From Icerya purchasi (lineage: Eukaryota; Arthropoda; Insecta; Hemiptera; Monophlebidae): a DNA stretch of 64,000 nt. The notes under the pieces were generated by a model. That model had not been told where the DNA came from and searched no databases. It was given only the letters and a program-made list of their open reading frames with translations. Both the position numbers and the translations under genes were made by a program. Positions 2,670-56,643 of the stretch are shown one piece after another. Within the stretch, counting starts at the first letter, position 1. Each line of letters starts with the position of its first letter. The DNA lies in NCBI GenBank assembly GCA_039619475.1, contig CM077115.1, positions 479,210,400 to 479,274,399 of the forward strand, read 5' to 3'.

Positions 2670-5089
2670 TGTATCTGTTGATAATCAAATCTTGCAATTA
2701 AATTTTCAATCACTTTCCGATAAGATGGATCCGTCTGTTACGGCAATGCGAGAATATGTAACTTTTTTTAAAAATTGTTTCAATAAATAAATAGTGTTCT
2801 CTTAATAACACATTAATTCTGAGTGCAGCAATAGGGAAATTACACCGATAGTTAACGTTCAATGAAAATAACTTTCCCTATGCCATGCGTTGACTGTAGC
2901 TAGTGTCATATTAGAAAAAAAAAAAAAAAAAGAAAATAAGTTAACCCTTTTAATAGGAAGGTAAACTTCGTTACGGATTACGTCTTCTTGAGCTTACGGT
3001 GAATTAAAAATGAAAATAAACACGAAAAAAAAAAAATAAATAAAATAAAAATAACAATTGCCACCCCACCGGTCACCAGGTCGCCGGCCACCGTGATTCT
3101 CTGCTGGAGTATCCACCGACTTTACGCACTTACGACTTGTTACGCGAGCAAACAAAAAATAAATAACAGCGATTATATTTTTTGACTATTACGCGCGACT
3201 AGAAAGAAACGATAAGAAACATGCCCAGAATACACAAAAACAAAGCATATATGAAGGAAAAATGACTATGTAAAAGAAAAATACGAAAAATGATTATACC
3301 GAAAAAATTGAAACATTCGTCGCGATGAAACTCTAACGACGTGCAACAACACGGTAAGCGGTAAACGGACAGTGGACGATTAATAATAATCCGAGCGCCG
3401 GTAAAAACTAAACATTTAACCGGCTGCTACCTGACCGACGCGATTAGAAGTGAAGAAAGATATTACTGATAAGAAATAACAAAAGATTATCTCTCTCGAT
3501 TTACCGCCATTACATGATTTTACTAATTTCTCGCAGCTTAATGCTACTTGGCAAGAATACCACCAACACAAGTAAATATACGCACCGAGGCCGAATCAAC
3601 TCGAAGGGAAAAGATCAATAGCAGGATCGCAAATCGTATGGATGAAGGATCTTGAAAGATGGTTTGGTTGAACAGAAAAACCGAGAGAAGCTGAATCAAG
3701 GGCTGAATCGGTAACCTCCGAAACGGAAATGGGGCACGAAGAAGAAGAGGACGAACGGGGAATCTTTAAGATCGTGCGTCCACGGAGATCACGTTTTGGC
3801 ACTGCCACTTGGCAGCACCTTTATGAAGTAGGAAAATCTATTTTCTAATCATCTTTTACCAGGCTTATTTAAAAATAAATAACTATTAAAAAAATAAATA
3901 AAAAGTACAAAAAATAATATTTTTTTTTTATTGTTATTATTTTTTGTCACCCATTCTCGTCATTTGGTTAGTTTAATACTTTTGATTTTCGCTAATTTAT
4001 TTGCACCTGATAATTTTCTTCTTTTTTCTTCATTTTTTTCTGCCAATAAGTTGCTAACGAACAAATTTTAATGGTGAATTTAGACTTGATAATCTTATTA
4101 CCTGTTGAATTTATGTAGTTCTGCGCAAAACCACTGAGCTGGGATATTAGTGATCATTTTATGTTTCGTATTCTGCGAATCGAGCGATTTATTATAAATG
4201 TCTAAGGATGTTAGTTTTTCCAGATGAATAACATTAACAAAGAATATATGCAAGCAACAACAATTTCTTTCAAAAAAGTAAACAATAAACTTCAATTCGA
4301 TCAATTTTATATAAACATCGAGGAATTTAATTTAGCCGATGAAAACTTCAACATGTTGAAGTGCTTTCGTCCGATGGACCTGACTGATTCCGTATGAAAA
4401 GAAATTTGTATAGCCACATACTTTTATTAAATTTTAATCGACTTAGATTTTGGTTATGTTAAATTTCGTTCTTGCGTTTACGTGCATACGCATGTTTAGT
4501 TACACTGCTTCCGCCCGAACAACGGTAGACGCCGTAATAAGAGGTAAATTTATTAATAGTGAAAGGCGGGATTTAATCAGTTTTATTTTTCATTTATTTA
4601 TCTGTTTGTAGGGAAGGGATAATGTTGCTTATTAGAATTACGCCCATCTTATAATATGAGTAGAAATTGTATAAATGTTTTAATGAAATTCACGAATTAG
4701 CAGTTTTTAGGATCTATCGATTGGTCTGAGTCTTATCATTTTATGAAACGAGCAATTGTAAAGGGAAGGCGACTAACGTTCGCTTTAATGATTATTGTAT
4801 GTTCAGAGTTCATTAAAAAGCAAATAAGTAAAAAGAGATAAGCACATCCTTGTTTTGTGATGAAGCATATTTATTTACGCTTTACACGGCAGATTTAAAT
4901 AGTATGCCAATTCAAGCATACAGGACGTTGTTTATGAAGTTTGTGAATATGATAATTTGTGATAATATTTCTGGTTTATGAATATTTGTTTTTATTTTTT
5001 GTAATGCGAGAATATTTCAACATGAAAATGAGAATAACGTAACGTACATAAAAACGCAGATTTCGTGTATATATCACAGCTAATTGTTT
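2670..5089. other. Unassigned A+T-rich sequence
   Basis: I see no supportable gene, RNA or repeat copy. Short open frames at 3596-3808 and 4098-4304 have no recognisable motif and low-complexity composition. Mononucleotide A runs occur at 2917-2932 and near 3025. Confidence 0.45.
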
Positions 5090-6054
5090 GACGCCAGTCT
5101 ACAACTAATTACCTCATTCTCTCGCGGAAGACTAGATATGGCGTCCCACAAGGATCCATTTTGGGTCCCACTCTATGGAACTTGCTCTACTCTGTAGTGC
5201 ACCATAGAATTGAGGGATTTTGTAACTGTTTTTAACAATAAATGTCACTTAATATTGTACGCAGACGACCTATGTCTGGCATTTGACGTGCATCATAATT
5301 ATCCTTATAAGCAAACAGAAATTATTTCAAAATACCTGCAGGGAAATATATAGGTGAATTTGGTTTGGAATTCTCTACTCCCAAGTGCAGTTTATCTGTG
5401 TTTGGTGATCGTGGAATTGTTAGCCGAGGTTTCCAGTTTCTCCCTAGTGTACGGAAATTCAGTATTTCATAACCCCCTATTAAAATATCTCGGAATAATA
5501 TTGGATGAAAATCTCACCTTTATTCTTTTCACTATAACATGATTGCCTTTAAATGTGAGATTACCTTCACACAAAATTCGCCAAAACTCAATCCAATGCT
5601 CGGGGGTTTGCATTTAGGGAGCGGTGCGTACTCTAAAAAGGCTTGACTCAGGCCTTGTATGGGTATGGCGTCGCTGTCTATGTCATTTTACGTCGAGTAA
5701 ATAAGCACCAGAGGAAATTTCTGTTGCGTATGGCTTCTATATATAAAACTTCTCTTACATCGGTAGCTTGTGTAATCTGTGGCATCTTGCCAACGGATTT
5801 ATATCTCACTGGTAGGGCTATGATCAATGAGCACAGTTTAGTGATTTGACACATCTATGAAACAATTAGGCTTGTTAGAAAATAACTTTCTACAGATACC
5901 GCGGCCGGTTTCCAAAAAACTATTTAGGAAATACATATATGGATAAACTAATACTGGGTGAGTGGCAGAGGCGGTGGAGCAATGACTTCGCTGGTAGGAA
6001 AACATTCGAGTTCCTGCCCGCTGTTTCTCTTAGACTAAAGTTGAAAAACATGAA
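5090..6054 (+). pseudogene. R1-clade non-LTR retrotransposon, RT region (5' part, interrupted)
   Basis: This is a decayed reverse transcriptase read on the plus strand. It shows RYGVPQGSILGPTLWNLLYS at 5134, then LILYADDLCLAF with the catalytic YADD at 5258-5269, then a 'KYLGIILDENL' block near 5490. Next come LLRMASIYKTSLTSVACVIC and GILPTDL at 5720-5810, and finally EWQRRWSNDFAGRKTFEFLP near 5960. The 'LLR..saYrT.S..A..Vi.G..PidL' and 'WQ.rW....GR.T..l.P' blocks are typical of R1-clade elements. At least one frameshift separates GVPQGS from YADD, and stops occur later, so the copy is dead. It ends exactly at the CATGAA duplication and resumes at 24909 in the same frame. The endonuclease and 5' RT parts are missing. 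Confidence 0.88.
6049..6054. repeat. Target-site duplication CATGAA, left copy
   Basis: Six bases directly before the palindromic element, identical to 24903-24908 directly after it. The duplication falls within a coding triplet run of the R1-like element. Deleting the insertion with one copy keeps that frame open. Confidence 0.9.
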
Positions 6055-6085
6055 AGTAGTCAGTAAATCTATGTTCTGGGACCTC

Positions 6086-6093
6086 TGACGTCA
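6086..6093. promoter_or_regulatory. Palindromic TGACGTCA (CRE/ATF-like) near the left terminus
   Basis: A perfect TGACGTCA lies 31 bp in from the terminus. It is the consensus for CREB/ATF-type factors. One 8-mer alone is weak evidence of function, but its position close to both ends of the element is notable. Confidence 0.35.
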
Positions 6094-6159
6094 CAAACCC
6101 GAGAACTGTGTGCAGAGGGCAGAAAGTAACCCAATTTCTTGCACGGGCGCTGAAAATTC

Positions 6160-6245
6160 ACCCAAGTTTCCCCAATTTTCCCCAAATTTCCTGCAATTTT
6201 TAGCAAATTTCCTCAATTTTCTGCAAATTTCCTCCAAATTCCTCT
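6160..6245. repeat. Subterminal array of short AATTTCC-type units
   Basis: About six degenerate units of 13-15 bp, each close to AATTTCCTCCAA (variants CCCAATTTTCC, GCAAATTTCC), lie in a row just inside the terminus. The mirror copy is at 24712-24797. Clustered subterminal units often bind an element's own recombinase or replication proteins, but that is only inference here. Confidence 0.6.
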
Positions 6246-6284
6246 GTACAGGTTCCGCGCATTTCCCATAGTTCGAACCAATTA

Positions 6285-8560
6285 AAACTAACCCTAGTAT
6301 ATTATTTAATGCCTGAAACTAACCCAAGTCCCCGCCCACCCCTCCTGTCTACAGCGTTACCGCGATCTTTTTAATTAATTCAAAGTCTAAGTATATGTAA
6401 TATAAAATTAGCCTAAGTATTTATTTTTAATGTGTAGAGAGTAGAAAGTAACCGATTAAAAATTAACCCAAGTATGTTATTTAACGTCTGAAACTAACCC
6501 AAGTCCCCGCCCACCCCTCCTGTCTACAACATTACCGCAATTTTTCAAAATTTAGGGCCTAAGTATGGAAATTCCAAATTTAACCCAAGTATACTATTTA
6601 AAGCCTGAAACTAACCCAAGTCTCCGCTCGCTCTTTCCACGATCCCGCGCATATATCCAACAAAGCGTTAGTCACTGCGAAAGCATACGTACCGTTCCCG
6701 CGCACGCGTCGTATGTTCCCGATACTGCGATCTTTTTTTTTTTTTTTTTTTAATATTTCGAAGCCTAAGTATAAAAAATTCCAAAATTATCCTAAATATA
6801 TTTTTTTCATTATCACATTTCCCCGTTTGTACAGGTAAATGTGGAAACACACACGCCGTCCCCGCGCATATATCCATCATAACATTAACCACAGTGAAAG
6901 TGCACACCCATTCCCACACATCGCGCCCTCTACTATCATATGTATGTATTACACATGCCTTTGCATGTAATATATGTAGCATACTTTTTAATTTTCATTT
7001 TTCGAGGTTGGGAGGGGTAAAATTTTGCCGGAGTGATAAAAACGTTTGAATCTCAACACTTAGAACCCAAAATTTAAAGGAATTTTCCGAGTCGTGCTCC
7101 GTTCCGGCATTTTTTTTTTAAATTTTATTTTTAAAGAAAATATTTGAACGTTCCATCAGTCGAATGAAAGCGGGCGAGTGTGCTGCTACGAGATGTATTA
7201 TGTAAGCGCGACCGCGGCTGTACTAGAAATATTTAAATGTTCCAGCAACTAGTTGAAACTGTCACCAGGTGAGGTGAATTCCAGTCGTTCGTTTTGAAAT
7301 TAACCAGCCGATCATCTATGCACACTCTCACTTGCCACCGTTAGAAACCTGTTCGCGATCGCTACAAGTTCATACACACGCACGTACACACCACCACTTG
7401 ATAAATATTTTTTCGTCTTTTTCCGCTTCCGATCTTATTTGTAATCCGTTGATTCTTTTTTTATTATTTTTCCGTATTCTCCGTTCATTGCAAAAGCACA
7501 CCATCCATTCATGCACACATATCAAGCATTATGTTAACCTCTACAAAGCTACACTGTACTATTCCACACACGCTCCGGTCGCCGTCGAAATAAACGCCGC
7601 GATATCACTCCCACACACACACACATACACACAACCACTTCATATATATTTTATTTTCGAGTCAAATTATTATAGAATTAGCCTAAGTATAATTTTCTTT
7701 TTCATTTCTGTTTACTTCTTCCGAAGTTCATAATTTTTATATTTTTTTTGTTTCTCCGATTCTAAAAATAAATCTGTCAATGTATTAGCCACTCTCTCCC
7801 GCGCACAGAATGTTCCCTCGCACTCATCTGCTACCTATCGTTCTTATTAATTTTTTTCAAGTCTAATATTATAGAATTAGCCTAAGTATAATTTTCTTTT
7901 ACACTGCTGTTTACTTCTTCCGAACGTTCATAATTTTTATATTTTTTTTGTTTCTCCGATTCTAAAAATAAATCTGTCAATGTATTAGCCACTCTCTCCC
8001 GCGCACAGAATGTTCCCTCGCACTCATCTGCTACCTATCGTTCTTATTAATTTTTTTCAAGTCTAATATTATAGAATTAGCCTAATTATATTTTTTTTTC
8101 GCTTCCAATCATTTCCTCCGACCGTTGATAATTTTCTTATTTTATTTTTTCTCAGGTTCTAAAAATAAATCCATTGTCATCTTCACTAGTATGATTGCGC
8201 ACATATCTTCTGCCGGTATTTCTCATATTGTTCATAATAATTTTTCATGTCTATGTATTATGGAATTAGTCTAAAATATATTTTTTCCCCTCTAAAGACT
8301 TTTTCCAAACGTAAGTATTCAAACATTAATTCGAGTATATTTTTATTTAACGCTGTTTCATAATTTCCCTCTCCCTTATCCACCCTACACAAATTTCAAT
8401 TATTTTCTATTATTTTTCATGAGTACATCCCCCTGAAACTACAGTGAAACCACACCAAACATTCCCACGCACCATATAGATTTTAACATCATTCGTAATA
8501 ATTCTTTTCGAGTCTATTAGTTTAAGATTATTCTATTTTTTTCAAACTCTAAATATTTTT
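6285..8560. repeat. Degenerate repeat field with the motif AATTARCCYAAGTATA
   Basis: The motif recurs at roughly 6292, 6408, 6463, 6577, 6764, 6790, 7676, 7873, 8075, 8265 and 8325, with intervals often near 100-200 bp. A longer companion (GAAACTAACCCAAGTCCCCG, followed by a C-rich word) appears at about 6315 and 6490, and partly at 6608. Pieces such as CCCGCGCA and ATTCTTTT-CGAGTCTA recur between the motif copies. The field looks like an old array of 170-200 bp units that has drifted. The apparent ORFs at 6565-6982 and 7332-7733 lie in this field and are not convincing genes. Confidence 0.7.
7671..8069. repeat. Near-identical 199-bp tandem duplication
   Basis: Two adjacent units, 7671-7869 and 7870-8069, are almost identical, both beginning TATAGAATTAGCCTAAGTAT. 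A third, diverged unit starts at 8070. This is the freshest part of the repeat field. Mirror copy: about 22888-23286. Confidence 0.85.
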
Positions 8561-8904
8561 TTTTTCAATATCTTTCATATTATATTTTTTTCCTCAATAT
8601 GTCCGCGTACCCTCATAGTGCAAAGGTACTCTGCTTATATCCTTGCATGCATGTTGTCATGTCGTTGATTTCGATCATGTGTCAAGGTCATCGAGTCTGC
8701 CCGAATCTTCCATGTCATATCTTTTGTAGAAAAACGGTTCATATGTTCACACCTACACACAAACACCCATAACCGAAAGAACACCTCTCAACTTCGTTCA
8801 TCTGCGTATGTATCCAGCTTTCACCAAAGGAATGTGGTTTATCTGATACGACTCAACATCTTCAAAGACTTGCATCGAGCTAGAATCTCGAAAGGATCTG
8901 TTCA

Positions 8905-9044
8905 GGCAGTCAGTATTAGTGCTATGTCGAACGTGTAGAATTTGTTGAAGCAGTGTTCTTCACGCATTAATAAAAGTTTGCTCTAACGTTAAAAGTAATA
9001 ATTTTCTACATTTTTTAGTAAAAAGTTAAAAATATTATTCAAAC
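8905..9044 (+). promoter_or_regulatory. Possible initiator and 5' leader of the 331-codon gene
   Basis: TCAGT at 8910-8914 matches the arthropod initiator core. A transcript from there would have a leader of about 130 nt containing one tiny upstream ORF (ATG TCG AAC GTG TAG). The main ATG at 9045 has A at -3. No convincing TATA box is seen at -30. Mirrored at 21913-22052. Confidence 0.25.
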
Positions 9045-10040
9045 ATGAATAACAACATTGTTTCGAAAGTCGACGAATTTATTCAGAATTCATTTTCGAG
9101 TGATAGTGTCACGCATACAACTTCATCACCTCCATCACCGCAGTCAGATGATTGTTATACAGCAGAAGAATCAACATCTTTTGTACATAATATCATTGGT
9201 CCTGTATTATTAACAGAACAAGCAGATATAGCGGAATATTTTCTAGATATCAGCATCCATGTAGATTGTGATTATGGTTTTCGAGTAACTGAACTAGCAA
9301 TGATTAATATGTCCGGTGGAAAGTGTTTGCATACGCTGTATAAGCCAAGCAGAGCATGGCATGCATCAAAAATGCCACATTTACAATGTTCTTCGATGAG
9401 TCATTACTTGAAAAATCCTTCATTATTTCCCTGTCGGGAAGAAATATTTATGGCACGCGATATATTCACGATATTATCTCAAAAACCGAGAGCTCGCATA
9501 TATATTTTAACAGTATATGCTAAACTTACACTAATGGAACTTAACGAAAAGTCTGAATTGTTGAGTGATTTAGACTATGAAATCGTTAATATGGATCAAG
9601 TCTTTCGACTACATAGTATTGAGAATCTACATGAAGAGTATTTTGGTATAAGCAATTTGATAACCTGTAAACATCATAATGAGATTGATAGTTTTCATTG
9701 TGCAGCGAAAAACGTTATGGTGATGAAGGCCTGGTACGATCATGTTATCCATCCGCTGAAGCTTATGAATAATCTCAATATAAATGATTTAAGTCAGTTG
9801 TTCATTACAGCCACCAAAGAAATGATAATTACATTATTTCCAAGTTGTGTTGGTGACATTTATGCATTTCTACCAGATAGATTAAAACAGGATGATACGA
9901 TAAAATCACTTCTACCATGTTACGAGCATGAGCATGATGAAGAATATTATATCGATGATGATATATTGCGACGGAGTACTCGAAATTGTATGAAAGTAAA
10001 AGATTGTATCGATTGTCAATGTAAAATTCGCACGGATTAA
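9045..10040 (+). CDS. Uncharacterised element-borne protein, 331 aa (left-arm copy)
   Basis: This is the only long ATG-initiated ORF in the arm with normal amino-acid composition. Residues 1-45 are Ser/Thr/Pro-rich and probably disordered. Residues 66-110 contain FLDISIHVDCDYGF, TELAMINMSGGKCLHTLYKP. Residues 146-165 read like a beta strand plus helix (RARIYILTVYAKLTLMELNE). Residues 207-230 carry TCKHHNEIDSFHCAAKNV then W230. The C-terminus has four cysteines (C315, C321, C324, C326). The order 'D.D-GF..tELAmi...G...h.lykP', a 'y..a.lt' strand, and 'C..H......hCA.kNv....W' recalls a family of roughly 300-aa proteins of unknown function found with repeats in insect genomes, with a possible DEDD-exonuclease-like (RNase H-fold) layout. 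That likeness is from memory and unproven. No membrane segment or signal peptide is seen. Confidence 0.75.
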   Translation: MNNNIVSKVDEFIQNSFSSDSVTHTTSSPPSPQSDDCYTAEESTSFVHNIIGPVLLTEQADIAEYFLDISIHVDCDYGFRVTELAMINMSGGKCLHTLYKPSRAWHASKMPHLQCSSMSHYLKNPSLFPCREEIFMARDIFTILSQKPRARIYILTVYAKLTLMELNEKSELLSDLDYEIVNMDQVFRLHSIENLHEEYFGISNLITCKHHNEIDSFHCAAKNVMVMKAWYDHVIHPLKLMNNLNINDLSQLFITATKEMIITLFPSCVGDIYAFLPDRLKQDDTIKSLLPCYEHEHDEEYYIDDDILRRSTRNCMKVKDCIDCQCKIRTD

Positions 10041-10059
10041 CTATTCATTATTTCGATCG

Positions 10060-11030
10060 TTTATCAATTTTGTGTATATTTGTATATATTTTTGTATATT
10101 AATGTATATATTTTTTTCCCTAATCGACAGTCCGTTCGTTTTTTGTGTTTTGTTAATCATTTTGTAAATATATTTTTATACATATTTAAATTTTATTTCT
10201 ATATATTTACATATATTTTTTCTTTGCCTTCAATTCCCTCCATATCTTTCATTCTATTGTATATATTTTTTCCTAATTAATTTTAATCTTTTTTCGCTCC
10301 TTTTCAATTCAGTTTATTTAACTATTTAACTATTTCTCTATTTCTTTTTCCTCCTCTTAACTTAAAGTACTGGTAATGATGAATATTACAAAAATCTGAA
10401 CCAGTTGTATAAAGTGTACGTGTAATTATTGTCTAATTTTCGAATATAATCCCGCATAATTTGTTCATATCTTTTTAGACTAAAACATTATATTTTTTAT
10501 TCTTTCTTTAACGAATCTAACTGTTCAACTTTTTCATGTACATCACGTACATCAAGTATTTTCCGCAGCTGTGTGAGTTTTCATTAATTTGTAAGACACA
10601 ACCTAAGACCCAGAGAGTTCTCTCTAATTGTTTAAAATCTTTCATAATCACACTTTTTTATTTTACATATATTTTTTGAGGTATATACGGGATCGTCTAT
10701 GAGGTGTGTTGATCAATAGAGCAACAGGTAGAAAACCTACTAGCTTACGAGACACAACATGTTTATAGAAAAAACGTGCTAGCATGAGCAGATCAGAGTT
10801 GCAATGTGCGAGTGAGAGACTGTATGCATGTATGTGTGCGAGAGCAACAGCTTGATTATAAAAAACGTCGAAGATACATGCATCTATCTGTGAACAATTA
10901 TCACATCAAACATAAAAAGGCTGACTAAAAGATTATTATTTTCTTTTTTCATTCATTCTGGCCACTATTACCACTCGCGCCCCACTGTCAAGACCTCTGA
11001 ACATACATTACTAACCTCACCGACACTATA
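10060..11030. other. A+T-rich sequence downstream of the 331-codon gene
   Basis: No gene was recognised. The first 250 bp is rich in TATATTTTTG-like words, which produces a meaningless low-complexity ORF at 10080-10280. A less A+T-rich island at 10680-10880 holds repeated TGTGCGAGWGAGA-like words but no open frame of note. Confidence 0.4.
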
Positions 11031-11039
11031 ATATTTTTT

Positions 11040-12140
11040 TCTCTGTGTTATTAAATTAACCCAAGTATATTTTTATTCATTTGTTACGCAAACTTTTGTT
11101 CAAATCTTTCGTAATATGTCGTGCACACATTTATATCCCACAGACACTACTCGCTTCATTACCACGAATACATCTCTTTCATTGTTACTTATCATAACAT
11201 AGTTTTTCCTGAAATTGTAGAAAAATTCTCTTCGTTCCATTCTTCCAAGGTGTTTTATTTCCTAATTTCAAATCATGCATAATTATTTAAGAATCAAATT
11301 AAGTATATTTTATCATTTCCAAAAAATTAATCATCTCTGTACAAGGCATTAACTCATTTTTCAAAACAAACATATTATTTTTTTAATCTATCGTACATAT
11401 CATTTTTATCATTCAAATTTTTTTCTGAATTCACAAATAGTTAACCTATAGAAAACATATTATTGTAAACATACATGACGAAGTCACTCCTCATAATTAC
11501 ATCATGAATTCATTTTTTTCATTTTTTTTTACCATCATGAAATTGTAGTAGTGTTTTTAATTTTTTATTTTCCATACGTGACAAAAGCAATAAAATCACG
11601 ACATCTATGAATACACACCATATGCTTCCAATAACCTATCATGCATTTTTTTAATTTAGTCCAAGCATACTATTTTTTCAATAACAAAGCCGATCATACA
11701 TAATTTTTTCTTCTATATAATCACTAATCTATGAAAACACTTGATTCGTTTTACTCATACTGTAGCAACCACTCCTTTTCCCTCATGCTAACAAACTTCA
11801 AAATTTAATAATATAACACGAAATTAATCTAAATATCTGTTCATGCTATTAAAATTAATATATCAATCTTTACATTCCTTTTGTACATTTCTGAAAAAAT
11901 CCTACAACATGTTTTAAAATTAATCGAAGTATACTATTTTATTACCTAAAATCAATTATTCTCTCATACAGTTTTTTTCCAATCATCCATAATGTTTTTT
12001 CTGTATTGTCATTATTACAAAGTCATACAAAACAACAACACATTTTTATTCATAATGAATCCTTCATTCCATTCCGTTCATGCTATATACCATTATCATT
12101 CAATTCAACGTTATGAAATTAGTATAAATATACATTCATG
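11040..12140. repeat. Second field of the AATTARCCYAAGTATA motif
   Basis: Diverged copies of the same motif occur near 11053, 11293, 11655, 11822, 11918 and 12119. Words such as TTCAAATCATGCATAAT recur between them. The spacing is looser than in the outer field. Mirror copy: about 18817-19917. Confidence 0.5.
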
Positions 12141-12589
12141 CTAGCAAAGTTATTATCTCACCCTTTGCATTGTTCCAAGATGATTTATTTTACATTTTTT
12201 CTTTAAATTTCCCTCATACTATTATTTTTGAAATGTAGGATGATGACTATGATTAGAATTAATGATTATGAAGTGAGAGATGCATGGTGAAATTGTATTG
12301 TCATTATATGCGAGATGATGTGTGTTTGTGGGTGAGTATGGATGCATGTAAAATATATGACTGTGTTAGTAGAAAACATCTGTTCATGCGTGAACACAGG
12401 TACAGATACAGTTATAGAATGAGAGAGGTAAAAATATATATTTTGTTATGTTTGATATGTGCATGATAAAGAGGTTAACAAAGAATAATCACATTACCCT
12501 CACAACTTAGACATTGAGTTATACCTTTGCAATATTTTAGATGTAAAAGCAGTGACATTGACATGTGGTAAACGTTTTCATCACTTTTG

Positions 12590-13615
12590 ACTAATTATAA
12601 CCAATTTTCCAACATTTCTCTTCGTTTTTCCTACATTTTAATACTTTTACACCGTTTTAGTCAATTTTTACTATTTAATGCCATTTTTTTTCCAGTGTTT
12701 TTACCACCTTTCTCACAATTTTCATCATTCTTTCATCATCTTTGTTAGGTTTTTTCTTACAACTCTTTAACACTTCGATCGTTGCTAGTGATAACCATCA
12801 TTATTTATGCTTTCAATCCTTCCACTTCAGCAATGCACACATACAGCTTAGCAATCGCCGCAGCCATTGAACGTTGTAGGACTGCAATCGTGATCTCCAT
12901 TTGATTATTAGGATTTAAAAGTCACATCTTTGAACGCTTGATCTAATGCATCAACATGATTTTTTTATATTCGCCCACCCGCTGCTGGAGGTTCCACTTA
13001 ATATTCTCAACAGACTATCATACAGTCGTTTAATAAGAGATTCTGTAAGACCCGAGACATTTACTTAACGTTTTCCCAACACATTTACAGACCTACCCTG
13101 TACACTAAGGAAATCTTTAAACATCTCTGTAACCATTCCTTTTAAGCTGGCGGGAGCAAGGAACTCCTATAAACGTTTATCAATCAGCACTTCATCGTTC
13201 ATCGCCCTGGTTTCACTCGCCGTTGCACAGACATGTAATAAACATTTTCTTCTTTTACAATTTTCTTATGCTATAACACTATTACATCATTTTTCCTCGT
13301 TTCTAACTAATTGTAACAAGTTTTCCATTATTTCTTAGCATGTTCTTCTGTTTTAGGACCTTTTGCGCCATTTTTTCATCAATTTATGTTATTTCACATC
13401 GTTTTTCTGGTGATTTTAGTGCCTTTCACACAATTTTACTAATTATTTTCGACTATTTCTTAACATGTTCTTCTGTTTTAGGTCCTTTTTGCACTATTTT
13501 TTCATCAATTTATGTTATTTCACATCGTTTTTCTAGTGTTTTACTACCTTTTACACAATTTTACTCAATTTTTCCCCCATCTTTGAAGATTTTTTTTTTC
13601 ATTTATCTCATACAT
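12590..13615. repeat. T-rich degenerate repeats including a 125-bp tandem pair
   Basis: A unit beginning TTCTTARCATGTTCTTCTG occurs twice with a 125-bp offset (ATG at 13340 and 13465). Each copy is followed by a TTTTTCATCAATTTATG block and a TTTCACATCGTTTTTCT block. A more diverged version of the same words lies at 12600-12720. The ORF at 13340-13639 is an artefact of this array. Mirror copy: about 17342-18367. Confidence 0.6.
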
Positions 13616-13675
13616 TATATCTCCGAATGTGACGATTAGCTATCCTTTAAGTACATTTTTTAATTCAATATAAGT

Positions 13676-14070
13676 GAGGAGTACTTTTCAGGTCGACATG
13701 TATACTTCGTGATATGACATTCAATTCATTATTAATCTATGTTTCAACAGATTTGTGGTCGGTTGTTGGAGGTTTACAGAACTTTCTGTTGCATTGCTTA
13801 TAGTATAATGGTTCTTGTGTGCTAGTAAGATGATGGTGTTTTGTGGGGAATAATAAACATGGGAAAGAGAAGGAGTGCGTCCCATCAAGAAGGGGGAGTG
13901 ATGCTTTGTAATTAACTTGGGTATTGCGCGCATTGCATGGCAGTTATAATATGCTCGAGCAAAAATTAGTCGCTGTACTCGCATGGTGTTCATGTTATTC
14001 ATTAGATGTTCACACTGAGAGATGCAATGGGCTCATCAACAGATGGATCCATGCTATCATTTCGATTTTT
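13676..14070 (+). repeat. Direct duplication within the arm, copy A
   Basis: This roughly 395-bp block resembles 14451-14850 along its length, at an offset of about 780 bp. Both start GAGGAGTACTTTT, share ACATGTATACTTC and TTTACAGAAC, and end in a coding-looking stretch. Translated, copy A gives CYSLDVHTER...IHAII, where copy B gives CYTLNIHTEK...VHAII. Many differences are conservative in protein terms, which suggests the block once encoded something. Mirror: 16887-17281. Confidence 0.7.
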
Positions 14071-14450
14071 ATAATTGTAATCTGCACTGAGTATGTATGT
14101 ATTACAACGAACCAATCAACTCTGTTACAGATGGTAATGTTTGAGGATAGATAGTGAAACGTTCATTAGAACATGAATGTGTATACAAAGTGTTGTTACA
14201 TCACATGTATGTCATCAAATTAACTAAAATGTTGCGTCTATAGTAAAAAAAAGAAATGAGGGTTTTTCCCTAAGAGGGCGACTATAATAAAATTGATGCG
14301 ATTTTAGATGGAAATGGGGTATTTTACAGTAAAAACACTGTTTTGCACCTAAATGGTGAATATTCTGGAGGTTAAACGGCATTTTTCACACAAAATTTGA
14401 TGTTTTTTTATAAATGTAGCTATTTTACTCCTACATGGAGTAATTTCTGC

Positions 14451-14850
14451 ATGAGGAGTACTTTTTGGACTGACATGTATACTTCTTGATGTGGTATTCA
14501 ATTCATTCTGAAGCTATGTTTGAACAGCTTTGTAAATGGTTGGGGGGGGGGGGGGGGAGTTTACAGAACTTTTCTGCTGCATCAGTTATAGTATAATAGT
14601 TTTTATATGCTAGTGAGATGAAGGTATTTGGTTAGGAATAATAAATATGGGTAAGAGGTGGAGTGCATCCCAATCAAGCATGGGAGAGTATTGTTTGGGA
14701 ATTAACTCCATTATTTGCACACATTGCAATACAATTACATTCAGTTTGGTCAAAATTACTTGTTGTATATCGTTCATGTTATACATTAAACATTCACACT
14801 GAGAAACGGACTGGTCTCTTCGACATCAAGGTCCATGCGATCATTACACT
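14451..14850 (+). repeat. Direct duplication within the arm, copy B
   Basis: This is the partner of 13676-14070. It contains the G run 14542-14557 (16 G), whose right-arm counterpart 16402-16415 has 14 C. That is the only difference between the two arms that I could find. Mirror: 16109-16506. Confidence 0.7.
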
Positions 14851-15121
14851 CTTTTTCAACAATTTGCGACGTTTCATACTATTTTTTAATGTTTTGAACG
14901 GCTCTTATGATGTATTTCAGCACATTTTCACAGATACAAAGTTCGTAATGCGAAATAATTTGAATTATTTCGACAGTCTTTACACACAAATAAAATACTA
15001 TACCATTAACACACTCAACATGAAACAAATCATTACAAATAGAAATAAACATCGAAATTGCGCAGAAATTTTAAGGAAATTCAAGAAGCATAGTGTATAT
15101 GAAAATGAATATATTCTTTAA
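14645..15121 (+). other. Conserved open frame without ATG (left arm)
   Basis: A frame of about 158 codons is open from the stop at 14642-14644 to the stop at 15121. It has no early ATG. Its first third matches the translation of copy A of the direct duplication. The C-terminal part is Asn/Lys/Tyr-rich (TLNMKQIITNRNKHRN) with no recognisable motif. It could be the 3' exon of a spliced gene (a GGGTAAGAGG donor-like word lies at 14649, but in the wrong place to help) or a decaying gene. No function can be given. Confidence 0.35.
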
Positions 15122-15196
15122 ATCAACACTCCAAACTTGCAGTTTCAGAATTATATCAGACCCTGACTAAGAACCCCCTTGTTCCTTATGCTGCAT

Positions 15197-15762
15197 ATAT
15201 ATGTATATAATCATATAATATTAAATTATACATATAACTACATATGTACATATATATATCTAAATATATACATATATATATCTACATATATACACATATA
15301 TATCTAAATATATACATATATATCTACATATATACATATATATCTACATATATACATATATATATCTATATATATACATATATATATCTAAATATATACA
15401 TATATATCTACATATATACATATATATATATACATATATACATATATATATCTACATATATACATATATATCTACATATATACATATATATCTACATATA
15501 TACATATATATATCTCCATATATACATATATATATCTAAATATATACATATATATCTACATATATACATATATTATCTACATATATATACATATATATCT
15601 ACATATATACATATATATCTAAATATATACATATATATCTACAATTATACATATATATCTACATATATACGCATATATCTACATATATACATATATATAT
15701 CTAAATATATACATATATATCTACATATATATACATATATATATCAACATATATACATATAC
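15197..15762. repeat. A+T-only tandem repeat at the centre of the palindrome
   Basis: The 566-bp centre is made of roughly 20-bp units close to ATATATACATATATATCTAC, with variants CTAAAT and longer TA runs. It keeps one direction throughout and so is not itself part of the inverted repeat. The long Tyr/Ile frame across it (15244-15792) is an artefact. Confidence 0.9.
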
Positions 15763-15837
15763 ATGCAGCATAAGGAACAAGGGGGTTCTTAGTCAGGGTC
15801 TGATATAATTCTGAAACTGCAAGTTTGGAGTGTTGAT

Positions 15838-16314
15838 TTAAAGAATATATTCATTTTCATATACACTATGCTTCTTGAATTTCCTTAAAATTTCTGCGCA
15901 ATTTCGATGTTTATTTCTATTTGTAATGATTTGTTTCATGTTGAGTGTGTTAATGGTATAGTATTTTATTTGTGTGTAAAGACTGTCGAAATAATTCAAA
16001 TTATTTCGCATTACGAACTTTGTATCTGTGAAAATGTGCTGAAATACATCATAAGAGCCGTTCAAAACATTAAAAAATAGTATGAAACGTCGCAAATTGT
16101 TGAAAAAGAGTGTAATGATCGCATGGACCTTGATGTCGAAGAGACCAGTCCGTTTCTCAGTGTGAATGTTTAATGTATAACATGAACGATATACAACAAG
16201 TAATTTTGACCAAACTGAATGTAATTGTATTGCAATGTGTGCAAATAATGGAGTTAATTCCCAAACAATACTCTCCCATGCTTGATTGGGATGCACTCCA
16301 CCTCTTACCCATAT
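15838..16314 (-). other. Conserved open frame without ATG (right arm)
   Basis: Exact mirrored copy of 14645-15121 with an identical translation. It has no early ATG and no recognised domain. Confidence 0.35.
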
Positions 16315-19300
16315 TTATTATTCCTAACCAAATACCTTCATCTCACTAGCATATAAAAACTATTATACTATAACTGATGCAGCAGAAAAGTTCTGTAAAC
16401 TCCCCCCCCCCCCCCAACCATTTACAAAGCTGTTCAAACATAGCTTCAGAATGAATTGAATACCACATCAAGAAGTATACATGTCAGTCCAAAAAGTACT
16501 CCTCATGCAGAAATTACTCCATGTAGGAGTAAAATAGCTACATTTATAAAAAAACATCAAATTTTGTGTGAAAAATGCCGTTTAACCTCCAGAATATTCA
16601 CCATTTAGGTGCAAAACAGTGTTTTTACTGTAAAATACCCCATTTCCATCTAAAATCGCATCAATTTTATTATAGTCGCCCTCTTAGGGAAAAACCCTCA
16701 TTTCTTTTTTTTACTATAGACGCAACATTTTAGTTAATTTGATGACATACATGTGATGTAACAACACTTTGTATACACATTCATGTTCTAATGAACGTTT
16801 CACTATCTATCCTCAAACATTACCATCTGTAACAGAGTTGATTGGTTCGTTGTAATACATACATACTCAGTGCAGATTACAATTATAAAAATCGAAATGA
16901 TAGCATGGATCCATCTGTTGATGAGCCCATTGCATCTCTCAGTGTGAACATCTAATGAATAACATGAACACCATGCGAGTACAGCGACTAATTTTTGCTC
17001 GAGCATATTATAACTGCCATGCAATGCGCGCAATACCCAAGTTAATTACAAAGCATCACTCCCCCTTCTTGATGGGACGCACTCCTTCTCTTTCCCATGT
17101 TTATTATTCCCCACAAAACACCATCATCTTACTAGCACACAAGAACCATTATACTATAAGCAATGCAACAGAAAGTTCTGTAAACCTCCAACAACCGACC
17201 ACAAATCTGTTGAAACATAGATTAATAATGAATTGAATGTCATATCACGAAGTATACATGTCGACCTGAAAAGTACTCCTCACTTATATTGAATTAAAAA
17301 ATGTACTTAAAGGATAGCTAATCGTCACATTCGGAGATATAATGTATGAGATAAATGAAAAAAAAAATCTTCAAAGATGGGGGAAAAATTGAGTAAAATT
17401 GTGTAAAAGGTAGTAAAACACTAGAAAAACGATGTGAAATAACATAAATTGATGAAAAAATAGTGCAAAAAGGACCTAAAACAGAAGAACATGTTAAGAA
17501 ATAGTCGAAAATAATTAGTAAAATTGTGTGAAAGGCACTAAAATCACCAGAAAAACGATGTGAAATAACATAAATTGATGAAAAAATGGCGCAAAAGGTC
17601 CTAAAACAGAAGAACATGCTAAGAAATAATGGAAAACTTGTTACAATTAGTTAGAAACGAGGAAAAATGATGTAATAGTGTTATAGCATAAGAAAATTGT
17701 AAAAGAAGAAAATGTTTATTACATGTCTGTGCAACGGCGAGTGAAACCAGGGCGATGAACGATGAAGTGCTGATTGATAAACGTTTATAGGAGTTCCTTG
17801 CTCCCGCCAGCTTAAAAGGAATGGTTACAGAGATGTTTAAAGATTTCCTTAGTGTACAGGGTAGGTCTGTAAATGTGTTGGGAAAACGTTAAGTAAATGT
17901 CTCGGGTCTTACAGAATCTCTTATTAAACGACTGTATGATAGTCTGTTGAGAATATTAAGTGGAACCTCCAGCAGCGGGTGGGCGAATATAAAAAAATCA
18001 TGTTGATGCATTAGATCAAGCGTTCAAAGATGTGACTTTTAAATCCTAATAATCAAATGGAGATCACGATTGCAGTCCTACAACGTTCAATGGCTGCGGC
18101 GATTGCTAAGCTGTATGTGTGCATTGCTGAAGTGGAAGGATTGAAAGCATAAATAATGATGGTTATCACTAGCAACGATCGAAGTGTTAAAGAGTTGTAA
18201 GAAAAAACCTAACAAAGATGATGAAAGAATGATGAAAATTGTGAGAAAGGTGGTAAAAACACTGGAAAAAAAATGGCATTAAATAGTAAAAATTGACTAA
18301 AACGGTGTAAAAGTATTAAAATGTAGGAAAAACGAAGAGAAATGTTGGAAAATTGGTTATAATTAGTCAAAAGTGATGAAAACGTTTACCACATGTCAAT
18401 GTCACTGCTTTTACATCTAAAATATTGCAAAGGTATAACTCAATGTCTAAGTTGTGAGGGTAATGTGATTATTCTTTGTTAACCTCTTTATCATGCACAT
18501 ATCAAACATAACAAAATATATATTTTTACCTCTCTCATTCTATAACTGTATCTGTACCTGTGTTCACGCATGAACAGATGTTTTCTACTAACACAGTCAT
18601 ATATTTTACATGCATCCATACTCACCCACAAACACACATCATCTCGCATATAATGACAATACAATTTCACCATGCATCTCTCACTTCATAATCATTAATT
18701 CTAATCATAGTCATCATCCTACATTTCAAAAATAATAGTATGAGGGAAATTTAAAGAAAAAATGTAAAATAAATCATCTTGGAACAATGCAAAGGGTGAG
18801 ATAATAACTTTGCTAGCATGAATGTATATTTATACTAATTTCATAACGTTGAATTGAATGATAATGGTATATAGCATGAACGGAATGGAATGAAGGATTC
18901 ATTATGAATAAAAATGTGTTGTTGTTTTGTATGACTTTGTAATAATGACAATACAGAAAAAACATTATGGATGATTGGAAAAAAACTGTATGAGAGAATA
19001 ATTGATTTTAGGTAATAAAATAGTATACTTCGATTAATTTTAAAACATGTTGTAGGATTTTTTCAGAAATGTACAAAAGGAATGTAAAGATTGATATATT
19101 AATTTTAATAGCATGAACAGATATTTAGATTAATTTCGTGTTATATTATTAAATTTTGAAGTTTGTTAGCATGAGGGAAAAGGAGTGGTTGCTACAGTAT
19201 GAGTAAAACGAATCAAGTGTTTTCATAGATTAGTGATTATATAGAAGAAAAAATTATGTATGATCGGCTTTGTTATTGAAAAAATAGTATGCTTGGACTA

Positions 19301-20916
19301 AATTAAAAAAATGCATGATAGGTTATTGGAAGCATATGGTGTGTATTCATAGATGTCGTGATTTTATTGCTTTTGTCACGTATGGAAAATAAAAAATTAA
19401 AAACACTACTACAATTTCATGATGGTAAAAAAAAATGAAAAAAATGAATTCATGATGTAATTATGAGGAGTGACTTCGTCATGTATGTTTACAATAATAT
19501 GTTTTCTATAGGTTAACTATTTGTGAATTCAGAAAAAAATTTGAATGATAAAAATGATATGTACGATAGATTAAAAAAATAATATGTTTGTTTTGAAAAA
19601 TGAGTTAATGCCTTGTACAGAGATGATTAATTTTTTGGAAATGATAAAATATACTTAATTTGATTCTTAAATAATTATGCATGATTTGAAATTAGGAAAT
19701 AAAACACCTTGGAAGAATGGAACGAAGAGAATTTTTCTACAATTTCAGGAAAAACTATGTTATGATAAGTAACAATGAAAGAGATGTATTCGTGGTAATG
19801 AAGCGAGTAGTGTCTGTGGGATATAAATGTGTGCACGACATATTACGAAAGATTTGAACAAAAGTTTGCGTAACAAATGAATAAAAATATACTTGGGTTA
19901 ATTTAATAACACAGAGAAAAAAATATTATAGTGTCGGTGAGGTTAGTAATGTATGTTCAGAGGTCTTGACAGTGGGGCGCGAGTGGTAATAGTGGCCAGA
20001 ATGAATGAAAAAAGAAAATAATAATCTTTTAGTCAGCCTTTTTATGTTTGATGTGATAATTGTTCACAGATAGATGCATGTATCTTCGACGTTTTTTATA
20101 ATCAAGCTGTTGCTCTCGCACACATACATGCATACAGTCTCTCACTCGCACATTGCAACTCTGATCTGCTCATGCTAGCACGTTTTTTCTATAAACATGT
20201 TGTGTCTCGTAAGCTAGTAGGTTTTCTACCTGTTGCTCTATTGATCAACACACCTCATAGACGATCCCGTATATACCTCAAAAAATATATGTAAAATAAA
20301 AAAGTGTGATTATGAAAGATTTTAAACAATTAGAGAGAACTCTCTGGGTCTTAGGTTGTGTCTTACAAATTAATGAAAACTCACACAGCTGCGGAAAATA
20401 CTTGATGTACGTGATGTACATGAAAAAGTTGAACAGTTAGATTCGTTAAAGAAAGAATAAAAAATATAATGTTTTAGTCTAAAAAGATATGAACAAATTA
20501 TGCGGGATTATATTCGAAAATTAGACAATAATTACACGTACACTTTATACAACTGGTTCAGATTTTTGTAATATTCATCATTACCAGTACTTTAAGTTAA
20601 GAGGAGGAAAAAGAAATAGAGAAATAGTTAAATAGTTAAATAAACTGAATTGAAAAGGAGCGAAAAAAGATTAAAATTAATTAGGAAAAAATATATACAA
20701 TAGAATGAAAGATATGGAGGGAATTGAAGGCAAAGAAAAAATATATGTAAATATATAGAAATAAAATTTAAATATGTATAAAAATATATTTACAAAATGA
20801 TTAACAAAACACAAAAAACGAACGGACTGTCGATTAGGGAAAAAAATATATACATTAATATACAAAAATATATACAAATATACACAAAATTGATAAACGA
20901 TCGAAATAATGAATAG

Positions 20917-21912
20917 TTAATCCGTGCGAATTTTACATTGACAATCGATACAATCTTTTACTTTCATACAATTTCGAGTACTCCGTCGCAATATATCATC
21001 ATCGATATAATATTCTTCATCATGCTCATGCTCGTAACATGGTAGAAGTGATTTTATCGTATCATCCTGTTTTAATCTATCTGGTAGAAATGCATAAATG
21101 TCACCAACACAACTTGGAAATAATGTAATTATCATTTCTTTGGTGGCTGTAATGAACAACTGACTTAAATCATTTATATTGAGATTATTCATAAGCTTCA
21201 GCGGATGGATAACATGATCGTACCAGGCCTTCATCACCATAACGTTTTTCGCTGCACAATGAAAACTATCAATCTCATTATGATGTTTACAGGTTATCAA
21301 ATTGCTTATACCAAAATACTCTTCATGTAGATTCTCAATACTATGTAGTCGAAAGACTTGATCCATATTAACGATTTCATAGTCTAAATCACTCAACAAT
21401 TCAGACTTTTCGTTAAGTTCCATTAGTGTAAGTTTAGCATATACTGTTAAAATATATATGCGAGCTCTCGGTTTTTGAGATAATATCGTGAATATATCGC
21501 GTGCCATAAATATTTCTTCCCGACAGGGAAATAATGAAGGATTTTTCAAGTAATGACTCATCGAAGAACATTGTAAATGTGGCATTTTTGATGCATGCCA
21601 TGCTCTGCTTGGCTTATACAGCGTATGCAAACACTTTCCACCGGACATATTAATCATTGCTAGTTCAGTTACTCGAAAACCATAATCACAATCTACATGG
21701 ATGCTGATATCTAGAAAATATTCCGCTATATCTGCTTGTTCTGTTAATAATACAGGACCAATGATATTATGTACAAAAGATGTTGATTCTTCTGCTGTAT
21801 AACAATCATCTGACTGCGGTGATGGAGGTGATGAAGTTGTATGCGTGACACTATCACTCGAAAATGAATTCTGAATAAATTCGTCGACTTTCGAAACAAT
21901 GTTGTTATTCAT
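20917..21912 (-). CDS. Uncharacterised element-borne protein, 331 aa (right-arm copy)
   Basis: The translation is identical to the left-arm gene at 9045-10040, with ATG at 21912-21910 and the stop at 20917. The two genes are transcribed toward the centre of the palindrome. Both copies are intact, which fits a very recent origin of the palindrome, ongoing exchange between arms, or selection. Features and doubts about function are as for the left copy. Confidence 0.75.
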   Translation of the reverse strand: MNNNIVSKVDEFIQNSFSSDSVTHTTSSPPSPQSDDCYTAEESTSFVHNIIGPVLLTEQADIAEYFLDISIHVDCDYGFRVTELAMINMSGGKCLHTLYKPSRAWHASKMPHLQCSSMSHYLKNPSLFPCREEIFMARDIFTILSQKPRARIYILTVYAKLTLMELNEKSELLSDLDYEIVNMDQVFRLHSIENLHEEYFGISNLITCKHHNEIDSFHCAAKNVMVMKAWYDHVIHPLKLMNNLNINDLSQLFITATKEMIITLFPSCVGDIYAFLPDRLKQDDTIKSLLPCYEHEHDEEYYIDDDILRRSTRNCMKVKDCIDCQCKIRTD

Positions 21913-24863
21913 GTTTGAATAATATTTTTAACTTTTTACTAAAAAATGTAGAAAATTATTACTTTTAACGTTAGAGCAAACTTTTATTAATGCGTGAAGA
22001 ACACTGCTTCAACAAATTCTACACGTTCGACATAGCACTAATACTGACTGCCTGAACAGATCCTTTCGAGATTCTAGCTCGATGCAAGTCTTTGAAGATG
22101 TTGAGTCGTATCAGATAAACCACATTCCTTTGGTGAAAGCTGGATACATACGCAGATGAACGAAGTTGAGAGGTGTTCTTTCGGTTATGGGTGTTTGTGT
22201 GTAGGTGTGAACATATGAACCGTTTTTCTACAAAAGATATGACATGGAAGATTCGGGCAGACTCGATGACCTTGACACATGATCGAAATCAACGACATGA
22301 CAACATGCATGCAAGGATATAAGCAGAGTACCTTTGCACTATGAGGGTACGCGGACATATTGAGGAAAAAAATATAATATGAAAGATATTGAAAAAAAAA
22401 ATATTTAGAGTTTGAAAAAAATAGAATAATCTTAAACTAATAGACTCGAAAAGAATTATTACGAATGATGTTAAAATCTATATGGTGCGTGGGAATGTTT
22501 GGTGTGGTTTCACTGTAGTTTCAGGGGGATGTACTCATGAAAAATAATAGAAAATAATTGAAATTTGTGTAGGGTGGATAAGGGAGAGGGAAATTATGAA
22601 ACAGCGTTAAATAAAAATATACTCGAATTAATGTTTGAATACTTACGTTTGGAAAAAGTCTTTAGAGGGGAAAAAATATATTTTAGACTAATTCCATAAT
22701 ACATAGACATGAAAAATTATTATGAACAATATGAGAAATACCGGCAGAAGATATGTGCGCAATCATACTAGTGAAGATGACAATGGATTTATTTTTAGAA
22801 CCTGAGAAAAAATAAAATAAGAAAATTATCAACGGTCGGAGGAAATGATTGGAAGCGAAAAAAAAATATAATTAGGCTAATTCTATAATATTAGACTTGA
22901 AAAAAATTAATAAGAACGATAGGTAGCAGATGAGTGCGAGGGAACATTCTGTGCGCGGGAGAGAGTGGCTAATACATTGACAGATTTATTTTTAGAATCG
23001 GAGAAACAAAAAAAATATAAAAATTATGAACGTTCGGAAGAAGTAAACAGCAGTGTAAAAGAAAATTATACTTAGGCTAATTCTATAATATTAGACTTGA
23101 AAAAAATTAATAAGAACGATAGGTAGCAGATGAGTGCGAGGGAACATTCTGTGCGCGGGAGAGAGTGGCTAATACATTGACAGATTTATTTTTAGAATCG
23201 GAGAAACAAAAAAAATATAAAAATTATGAACTTCGGAAGAAGTAAACAGAAATGAAAAAGAAAATTATACTTAGGCTAATTCTATAATAATTTGACTCGA
23301 AAATAAAATATATATGAAGTGGTTGTGTGTATGTGTGTGTGTGTGGGAGTGATATCGCGGCGTTTATTTCGACGGCGACCGGAGCGTGTGTGGAATAGTA
23401 CAGTGTAGCTTTGTAGAGGTTAACATAATGCTTGATATGTGTGCATGAATGGATGGTGTGCTTTTGCAATGAACGGAGAATACGGAAAAATAATAAAAAA
23501 AGAATCAACGGATTACAAATAAGATCGGAAGCGGAAAAAGACGAAAAAATATTTATCAAGTGGTGGTGTGTACGTGCGTGTGTATGAACTTGTAGCGATC
23601 GCGAACAGGTTTCTAACGGTGGCAAGTGAGAGTGTGCATAGATGATCGGCTGGTTAATTTCAAAACGAACGACTGGAATTCACCTCACCTGGTGACAGTT
23701 TCAACTAGTTGCTGGAACATTTAAATATTTCTAGTACAGCCGCGGTCGCGCTTACATAATACATCTCGTAGCAGCACACTCGCCCGCTTTCATTCGACTG
23801 ATGGAACGTTCAAATATTTTCTTTAAAAATAAAATTTAAAAAAAAAATGCCGGAACGGAGCACGACTCGGAAAATTCCTTTAAATTTTGGGTTCTAAGTG
23901 TTGAGATTCAAACGTTTTTATCACTCCGGCAAAATTTTACCCCTCCCAACCTCGAAAAATGAAAATTAAAAAGTATGCTACATATATTACATGCAAAGGC
24001 ATGTGTAATACATACATATGATAGTAGAGGGCGCGATGTGTGGGAATGGGTGTGCACTTTCACTGTGGTTAATGTTATGATGGATATATGCGCGGGGACG
24101 GCGTGTGTGTTTCCACATTTACCTGTACAAACGGGGAAATGTGATAATGAAAAAAATATATTTAGGATAATTTTGGAATTTTTTATACTTAGGCTTCGAA
24201 ATATTAAAAAAAAAAAAAAAAAAAGATCGCAGTATCGGGAACATACGACGCGTGCGCGGGAACGGTACGTATGCTTTCGCAGTGACTAACGCTTTGTTGG
24301 ATATATGCGCGGGATCGTGGAAAGAGCGAGCGGAGACTTGGGTTAGTTTCAGGCTTTAAATAGTATACTTGGGTTAAATTTGGAATTTCCATACTTAGGC
24401 CCTAAATTTTGAAAAATTGCGGTAATGTTGTAGACAGGAGGGGTGGGCGGGGACTTGGGTTAGTTTCAGACGTTAAATAACATACTTGGGTTAATTTTTA
24501 ATCGGTTACTTTCTACTCTCTACACATTAAAAATAAATACTTAGGCTAATTTTATATTACATATACTTAGACTTTGAATTAATTAAAAAGATCGCGGTAA
24601 CGCTGTAGACAGGAGGGGTGGGCGGGGACTTGGGTTAGTTTCAGGCATTAAATAATATACTAGGGTTAGTTTTAATTGGTTCGAACTATGGGAAATGCGC
24701 GGAACCTGTACAGAGGAATTTGGAGGAAATTTGCAGAAAATTGAGGAAATTTGCTAAAAATTGCAGGAAATTTGGGGAAAATTGGGGAAACTTGGGTGAA
24801 TTTTCAGCGCCCGTGCAAGAAATTGGGTTACTTTCTGCCCTCTGCACACAGTTCTCGGGTTTG

Positions 24864-24871
24864 TGACGTCA
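24864..24871. promoter_or_regulatory. Palindromic TGACGTCA near the right terminus
   Basis: Mirror of 6086-6093, lying 31 bp in from the right end. Functional meaning is unproven. Confidence 0.35.
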
Positions 24872-24902
24872 GAGGTCCCAGAACATAGATTTACTGACTA
24901 CT

Positions 24903-24908
24903 CATGAA
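24903..24908. repeat. Target-site duplication CATGAA, right copy
   Basis: Identical to 6049-6054. It directly follows the terminal CT of the palindrome and leads back into the R1-type coding frame. Confidence 0.9.
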
Positions 24909-25180
24909 TCTAATTTTTTTCAACTCGCAGGTGTTGTCCGGGCATGACAAGTTTCAATCCTACTTATACAGGTTTGGGCTTGCTGATGCCCCGAATGCAT
25001 ATTTTGTTCATTACACTTAGTCGATGATCTGAATTCTGTTTGACTACCCTGTCCTTTCCGATATTCTTGGAGAACTCGTACGCACTTCCTTATATGCTCG
25101 ATAGAAGAAACTTCCCTGAATAAGTCGAAAGGGCAATGCATTTAAAATTTACGTTGTCCAATCAGTAATAGTTTTCCTAT
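24909..25180 (+). pseudogene. R1-clade retrotransposon, C-terminal part (resumed)
   Basis: After the insertion the frame left at 6054 continues. It reads QVLSGHDKFQSYLYRFGLAD, then a degraded cysteine-knuckle region, then VDDLNSV with stops. 'LtGHg.F..YL.rF.l...p.C..C...Dd.eHtlf.C' is the C-terminal zinc-knuckle layout of R1-clade reverse transcriptases; the cysteines are largely lost. The old copy was therefore probably already inactive when the palindrome inserted. Coding likeness fades near 25180. Confidence 0.8.
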
Positions 25181-56230: not shown

Positions 56231-56643
56231 ATCCCTTACAATTAAATCCTGGAAACGATTATGGAGCTTTAATCAACAAAACCGCCTTTTCCTTATTAAA
56301 CCTGATTCGCTATCTCAGATCCCCCTTTCGTTCTATTCAAGGAAGACAAATATTATTCTTACCAGAATAATAATAATTATAATGATAATAATAAGGAAGG
56401 CCTTTATCAAAATTTCGAAAATTCACCAACAATATTTATAATTCAGCGGCGGTAAAAGTTATATATGAACATCGGAACAAATTTTGAATTCTCGGTTATT
56501 GTTAGAAAAAAACGCATGAATATTGAAACGGTGTCGTGTTTTATGAACTACATCAAGACATTTGATTTTGTTTAGCGGAGTAAACTTTGACTAGTGTTGA
56601 CCGGAGTAGGCCACAAATTTAGCAAAAGTTCGAATAAATAAAA

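Follow-up and report, generated by a model that had tools for sequence, protein, structure and literature searches.

Giant mirror-symmetric Maverick/Polinton derivatives in the genome of Icerya purchasi

The insertion described here occupies positions 6055..24902 of a 64,000-nt stretch of the Icerya purchasi genome (assembly GCA_039619475.1, contig CM077115.1, positions 479,210,400 to 479,274,399), hereafter the window, and belongs to a family, present in many copies, of ~18.5-kb Maverick/Polinton derivatives whose two halves mirror each other almost perfectly. The architecture is real, recently active and within the known Maverick/Polinton family; nothing matching it was found in the open literature among the matches listed. 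The explanation we favour, and consider likely, is that a non-autonomous Maverick/Polinton turned into a giant palindrome, or snap-back form, which is mobilised in trans, probably via a hairpin.

The insertion and its family

The insertion measures 18,848 bp, of which two mirrored arms together make up 97.0%. The left arm (6055..15196, plus strand, 9142 nt) begins AGTAGTC, and the right arm (15763..24902, minus strand, 9140 nt) is its reverse complement apart from 2 nt in one G-run; when aligned, the arms agree for 8501 nt, diverge at a single point (a G-run of 16 against 14) and agree again from there to the end. Between them lies a spacer of 566 nt (15197..15762), mostly an AT-rich microsatellite with a unit of ~22 nt. 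The 6-bp target-site duplication CATGAA stands directly before the left end (6049..6054) and directly after the right end (24903..24908), and removal of the insertion with one CATGAA joins 5879..6054 (plus strand) and ~24909–25017 into a single open frame of ~95 codons across the site. This frame we take to be R1-like, a label given by eye and from recall rather than by a search. The first-pass annotation of this DNA had described the mirrored arms with ends defined to the base, the duplication and the restored frame, and had argued for a mobile element inserted by transposition or integration; each of these points was borne out, and the last gains strength from 11 more sites where these termini stand between 6-bp duplications of different sequence.

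The genome search for the terminus that the annotation had proposed was run with a 92-nt query against the assembly (1,103.38 Mb, scaffold N50 601.66 Mb, two chromosomes, as given in PMC11183206). At least 40 places were scored from 402 first-look candidates, and by eye these form 19 facing pairs and two singles. The end-to-end span is 17.4–19.2 kb in 14 of the 19 pairs (also counted by eye) and 2.1, 4.7, 10.8, 22.5 and 32.1 kb in the other five.

Twelve elements were read, namely the window insertion and 11 further copies, the 32-kb element E397 in parts. In all 12, AGTAGT stands at the start and its complement at the end, and each lies between perfect 6-bp duplications that differ from element to element. 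Since the 92-nt terminus recurs and every copy read has these ends and its own duplication, a chance origin of the mirrored structure is excluded. Seven of the elements are giant palindromes (the window insertion, E327, E424, E592, E227, E397 and E188), two are Mavericks that carry genes between short terminal repeats, and three are shorter derivatives. The gene-bearing pair comprises E053 (18.5 kb, terminal repeats of ~970 nt) and E327_C1 (19.1 kb, ~540 nt). Among the shorter derivatives, E466 (10.8 kb, 1844-nt terminal repeats) and E432 (4.7 kb, ~1150-nt terminal repeats) have bodies that match one arm in whole or in part, while E284 (L025, C2:284386295-284388351) is a 2.1-kb near-palindromic miniature with the same ends, terminal repeats of ~857 nt and its own 6-bp duplication. 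The 32-kb size of E397 appears to stem from a tandem duplication of ~14.6 kb.

Kinship with gene-bearing Mavericks

Intact vertebrate Mavericks, as characterised in PMC8097293, have (AGT)2...(ACT)2 ends, a 6-bp duplication, a length of 12.7–24.6 kb and terminal repeats of 46–1447 bp. Set against the features that define Mavericks, the Icerya palindromes have the expected ends (5'-(AGT)2...(ACT)2-3' or (AG)3; AGTAGT at both ends in 12/12 copies), the expected duplication (perfect in all 12) and, at 18,848 bp in the window, the expected size (~13–25 kb), and a same-ended gene-bearing partner is present in the genome in E053 and E327_C1. One exception is the terminal repeat, which spans ~9140 nt where tens to ~1450 bp are expected. 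The annotation's statement that no described family has this structure thus stands for the 9-kb arms and the want of recognisable core genes, and gives way for the ends and the duplication, which are those of Maverick/Polinton elements.

The scanned open reading frames (ORFs) of E053 encode a double-jelly-roll capsid protein (1.1e-74), a Pox_A32-like ATPase, an integrase with a chromodomain and a PLA2-like domain; E053 also has a 1224-amino-acid ORF, known from its length alone. The polymerase ORF of E327_C1, 1224 amino acids long, gave an endonuclease VII-like match and is 60% identical over 176 amino acids to window positions 62610-63302, and the remaining ORFs of this element, mostly outside the domain scan, match those of E053 in length. 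No protease was found among the scanned ORFs of the two elements, a scan that left out most ORFs of E327_C1. The window segment 62610-63302 (minus strand) is itself a fragment of a second Maverick-type DNA polymerase; its match to DNA_pol_B_2 is weak (3.5e-5) and falls short of the curated cut-off.

Within the arms, the three stop-to-stop ORFs of at least 130 amino acids outside the microsatellite matched no Pfam family, and the Pfam scan together with a translated comparison recognised no protein-primed DNA polymerase (PolB), integrase, capsid, ATPase or protease of the element's own. We therefore class the window element as a non-autonomous derivative and not as a full Maverick. When the arm was compared in translation with E053 and E327_C1, what stood out was the termini, an ORF that we call X and the flanks of X, the remainder being short weak pieces. 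DNA comparison, confined to the best 8 or 14 matches longer than 100 or 150 nt, agrees: the terminal 374 bp (arm positions 1–374; 6055..6428, plus strand, and by arm symmetry 24529..24902, minus strand) are 90–93% identical to the terminal repeats of E053 and E327_C1, and the stretches adjoining X are ~82% identical. Upstream of X, 8671..9016 (plus strand; arm 2617–2962) matches, in short pieces, the DNA that immediately follows the terminal repeat on the inner side in the gene-bearing Mavericks, and arm positions 2734–2962 are 82% identical to E327_C1 and 83% to the miniature E284. On its 3' side, 10165..10430 (plus strand; arm 4111–4376) matches, at 81–82%, the intergenic DNA of the gene-bearing elements that separates the polymerase ORF from the homologue of X.

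ORF X itself (9045..10040, plus strand, 331 amino acids), with an identical mirror copy at 20917..21912 (minus strand), is homologous to a Maverick accessory ORF, the one adjoining the polymerase (27% identity, 1e-26), for which a DnaQ/RNase H-like exonuclease-type fold is predicted with modest confidence. A further ORF, Y, carried by E592 and E397, is 50% identical to another Maverick ORF (1e-102), and E424 seems to hold different sequence at the place of X. If the palindromes were a transposon family of other descent that happened to bear Maverick-like ends, this would account for the absence of recognised core genes and for the long parts of the arm that have no DNA match to the gene-bearing elements; it would leave the shared 374-bp terminus, the X flanks and the homologues of X and Y unexplained, and we consider it highly improbable.

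As a genome query, X was scored at no fewer than 121 places out of 3491 first-look candidates. The copies listed include at least 50 facing (convergent) pairs, or 100 copies, and 21 unpaired ones; 99 of the 121 are free of stops. The two copies lie 11.5–12.6 kb apart in 31 of the 50 pairs, and their scores are equal in both arms in 42. Stops occur in either arm of nine pairs, and in seven of these nine the same stop codons are present in both arms. For 20 of the 50 pairs, chosen from the search list, 1 kb was fetched at the midpoint: 14 midpoints are palindromic, one of them off-centre, and the six others belong to pairs with distances of 9.4, 9.8, 15.8, 16.0, 16.4 and 17.7 kb, outside 11–13 kb, as expected if one arm had gained or lost DNA. 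Facing pairs at dozens of loci, few-site arm differences in several copies and 12 matched, mutually different target duplications are hard to reconcile with a mirror produced during assembly by fold-back reads or a collapsed repeat. The perfection of the arms, as seen in the assembled sequence, would speak for such an artefact; the assembly was built from HiFi reads with hifiasm (PMC11183206), and an artefact is in our view scarcely credible.

Arm identity and its possible origin

The arms of one element are far more alike than those of different elements. Across the seven palindromes, each compared over 8.7–9.1 kb, the arms differ by 0, 2, 18 (E424), 14 (E592), 0, 1 and 3 substitutions and by 1, 3, 3, 2, 4, 0 and 0 indel events, so that divergence between the two arms of an element is 0–0.2%, against 1.0–21.3% between left arms of different elements (arms cut at the microsatellite, or at 8,900–9,100 nt in those lacking a match to its edge motif). 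Along the arms, strongly and weakly diverged blocks relative to the window fall at nearly the same places on both sides of an element, a mosaic that is itself mirrored. The X region gives the same picture at seven loci, five of them added from the X list (with E330 and E349 chosen among eight pairs of unequal score): leaving out gapped columns, differences from the window in both arms and in one arm number 7/0 in E227, 10/0 in E350a, 9/0 in E188, 0/0 in E249, 5/2 in E330, 0/1 in E500 and 2/14 in E349. One ancient inverted duplication followed by ordinary cut-and-paste or replicative transposition, with no homogenising step, would be simple, and its single origin would account for the common architecture. 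Without homogenisation, however, the arms should differ as much as the elements do, and differences between loci would not be present in both arms; we regard this origin as very unlikely.

A broken form of X is mirrored as well. At E227, E350a and E188 a TAG stands at codon 105 in both arms; over the X region E227 differs from E350a by three substitutions and E350a from E188 by seven, and the arms of each differ by none. The defective gene has therefore reached three or more loci, each time in both arms. A separate locus, C2:350479442-350505019, holds three X copies (+, −, −) that are mutually identical over 1193 nt and all carry the TAG at codon 105, perhaps a partial duplication.

The decayed copy E349 bears on the time after insertion. 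Its 14 inter-arm substitutions are all private, seven in the left arm and seven in the right, and at none of these sites are both alleles found in the other 15 rows of the alignment. The arms were therefore identical at birth and then decayed independently.

In the window and most copies inspected the centre is the AT microsatellite, through which the palindrome of E188 continues at 98%. E397 has a 15-nt loop whose flanking stems show no mismatch over the 790 and 798 nt that were read. E592 shows the same 15 nt and then runs into the microsatellite and back. The centre of E397 could be derived from an E592-like element either by folding back at a different position or by a central deletion.

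We propose that the palindrome has retained those Maverick ends on which replication and integration depend, together with accessory gene X, and Y in a sister type, and hardly any other recognisable content, all doubled as mirror arms, and that it is copied by the PolB, and inserted by the integrase, that gene-bearing Mavericks supply in trans. During protein-primed replication the displaced strand would fold into a hairpin with a stem of ~9 kb, whose repair or copying would equalise the arms in every round, so that each insertion would begin with identical arms; the product would then integrate with a 6-bp duplication. The shared ends and duplications suggest replication and integration in trans, and the arm statistics suggest the hairpin.

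A competing explanation accepts the same palindromic Maverick derivative and lets gene conversion on the chromosome maintain the likeness of its arms once it is inserted, as in Y-chromosome palindromes, with no need for hairpin replication. The greater likeness of arms within than between elements would fit it, and several observations weigh in its favour or otherwise against the hairpin-based explanation. The private pattern comes from the 14 sites of a single decayed copy and from three sites elsewhere. Most arm differences of E424 and E592 are concentrated in the inner half, and a degree of conversion between arms would be compatible with this. In the alignment of all arms, which joins types barely alignable in the inner third and gives rough counts there, both alleles also occur in other elements at 8/19 sites of E424, 3/14 of E592, 1/2 of E327, 1/3 of E188 and 1/5 of E227; the same alignment yields five substitutions for E227, where the pairwise comparison has none beside four indel events, and 13 of the 14 differences of E397 are its loop. 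Ten of the 11 shared-allele sites of E424 and E592 lie beyond alignment column 9000, in a part with scarcely any alignment between the two main types, and the sharing is likely due to chance, although the pattern is still unlike the private one of E349. Because the codon-105 lineage reached three loci with a broken X, X is not needed in cis, and purifying selection on it is at most weak: of the ten pairwise comparisons that five copies allow, seven give dN/dS of 0.24–0.63 (the other three lack synonymous changes), with few changes overall, and 0.62 for Y. Five of the 19 end pairs fall outside 17–19 kb, and element length is therefore not strictly fixed. Mobilisation in trans is drawn from the shared ends, and the hairpin, extrachromosomal and packaged forms are proposed from the sequence.

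Two results speak against gene conversion as the main agent. The 14 private substitutions of E349, seven per arm, were not erased by it, and the relatives with small terminal repeats, in which short, separated repeats should undergo less conversion, are mostly as alike as the giant arms: their repeats differ by 1/1844, 0/1150, 2/855, 2/541 and 12/921 substitutions, and a divergence plainly above that of the giant arms is seen in the last of these only. We hold gene conversion to be unlikely as the explanation and retain the trans-mobilised, hairpin-forming Maverick derivative.

Significance and comparison with known systems

Gene-bearing Mavericks and palindromes with differing interiors have the same length of ~18.5 kb, which suggests packaging: this length is possibly kept because Maverick capsids package it. 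A genome size constraint has been argued from vertebrate Mavericks in PMC8097293, which also states that particles of Mavericks had not been seen. More tentatively, and in our view less likely than not, the palindromes could be inherited satellite genomes of Maverick viruses, passing through full-length hairpins that are packaged in helper capsids and whose halves are rewritten to identity in each cycle.

Palindromes of ~18 kb are generally unstable; here a giant palindrome is a successful transposon form that has been inserted dozens of times. Its arms give every insertion its own birth clock, and the family documents, in a natural setting, the ways in which linear DNA of the protein-primed kind may fold back. 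It also offers a test of whether the capsid sets Maverick genome length, since largely non-coding palindromes at the gene-bearing length are otherwise hard to explain.

Other features of the window include a tandem repeat within the arms (7654..8171, 200-bp unit, 2.6 copies, mirrored at 22786-23303), pieces resembling a non-LTR (long terminal repeat) retrotransposon at 53971-56235 (minus strand), of which 54817-55389 matches RVT_1 (3e-13), and two short inverted pairs, 28690-28758/50963-51031 (91% alike) and 37144-37212/37445-37513 (93% alike).

Among known systems, Maverick/Polinton elements (polintoviruses, adintoviruses) are closest, sharing the (AGT)2...(ACT)2 ends, the 6-bp duplication, a length of 17–19 kb, terminal DNA and homologues of two ORFs; the Icerya palindromes differ in having mirror arms of ~9 kb in place of repeats of 46–1447 bp, and in that polymerase, integrase and capsid genes are not recognisable. 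Foldback/Galileo-type transposons also have very long terminal inverted repeats, with another transposase class, another target-site length and shorter arms. The two repeats of LTR retrotransposons are identical at birth and then decay privately, which makes them a clock; the Icerya arms work as a like clock, but as inverted repeats of a DNA element. Copy-back, palindromic defective adenovirus DNA is likewise a protein-primed linear DNA with one end duplicated in mirror image, and is known as laboratory variants, whereas the Icerya palindromes are an inherited mobile family. Adeno-associated virus snapback genomes, as described in PMC8235507, are similarly defective, take a double-stranded snapback configuration and carry one part of the genome; they come from stocks of a small single-stranded DNA virus, while the Icerya palindromes are inherited, numerous and ~18.5 kb long.

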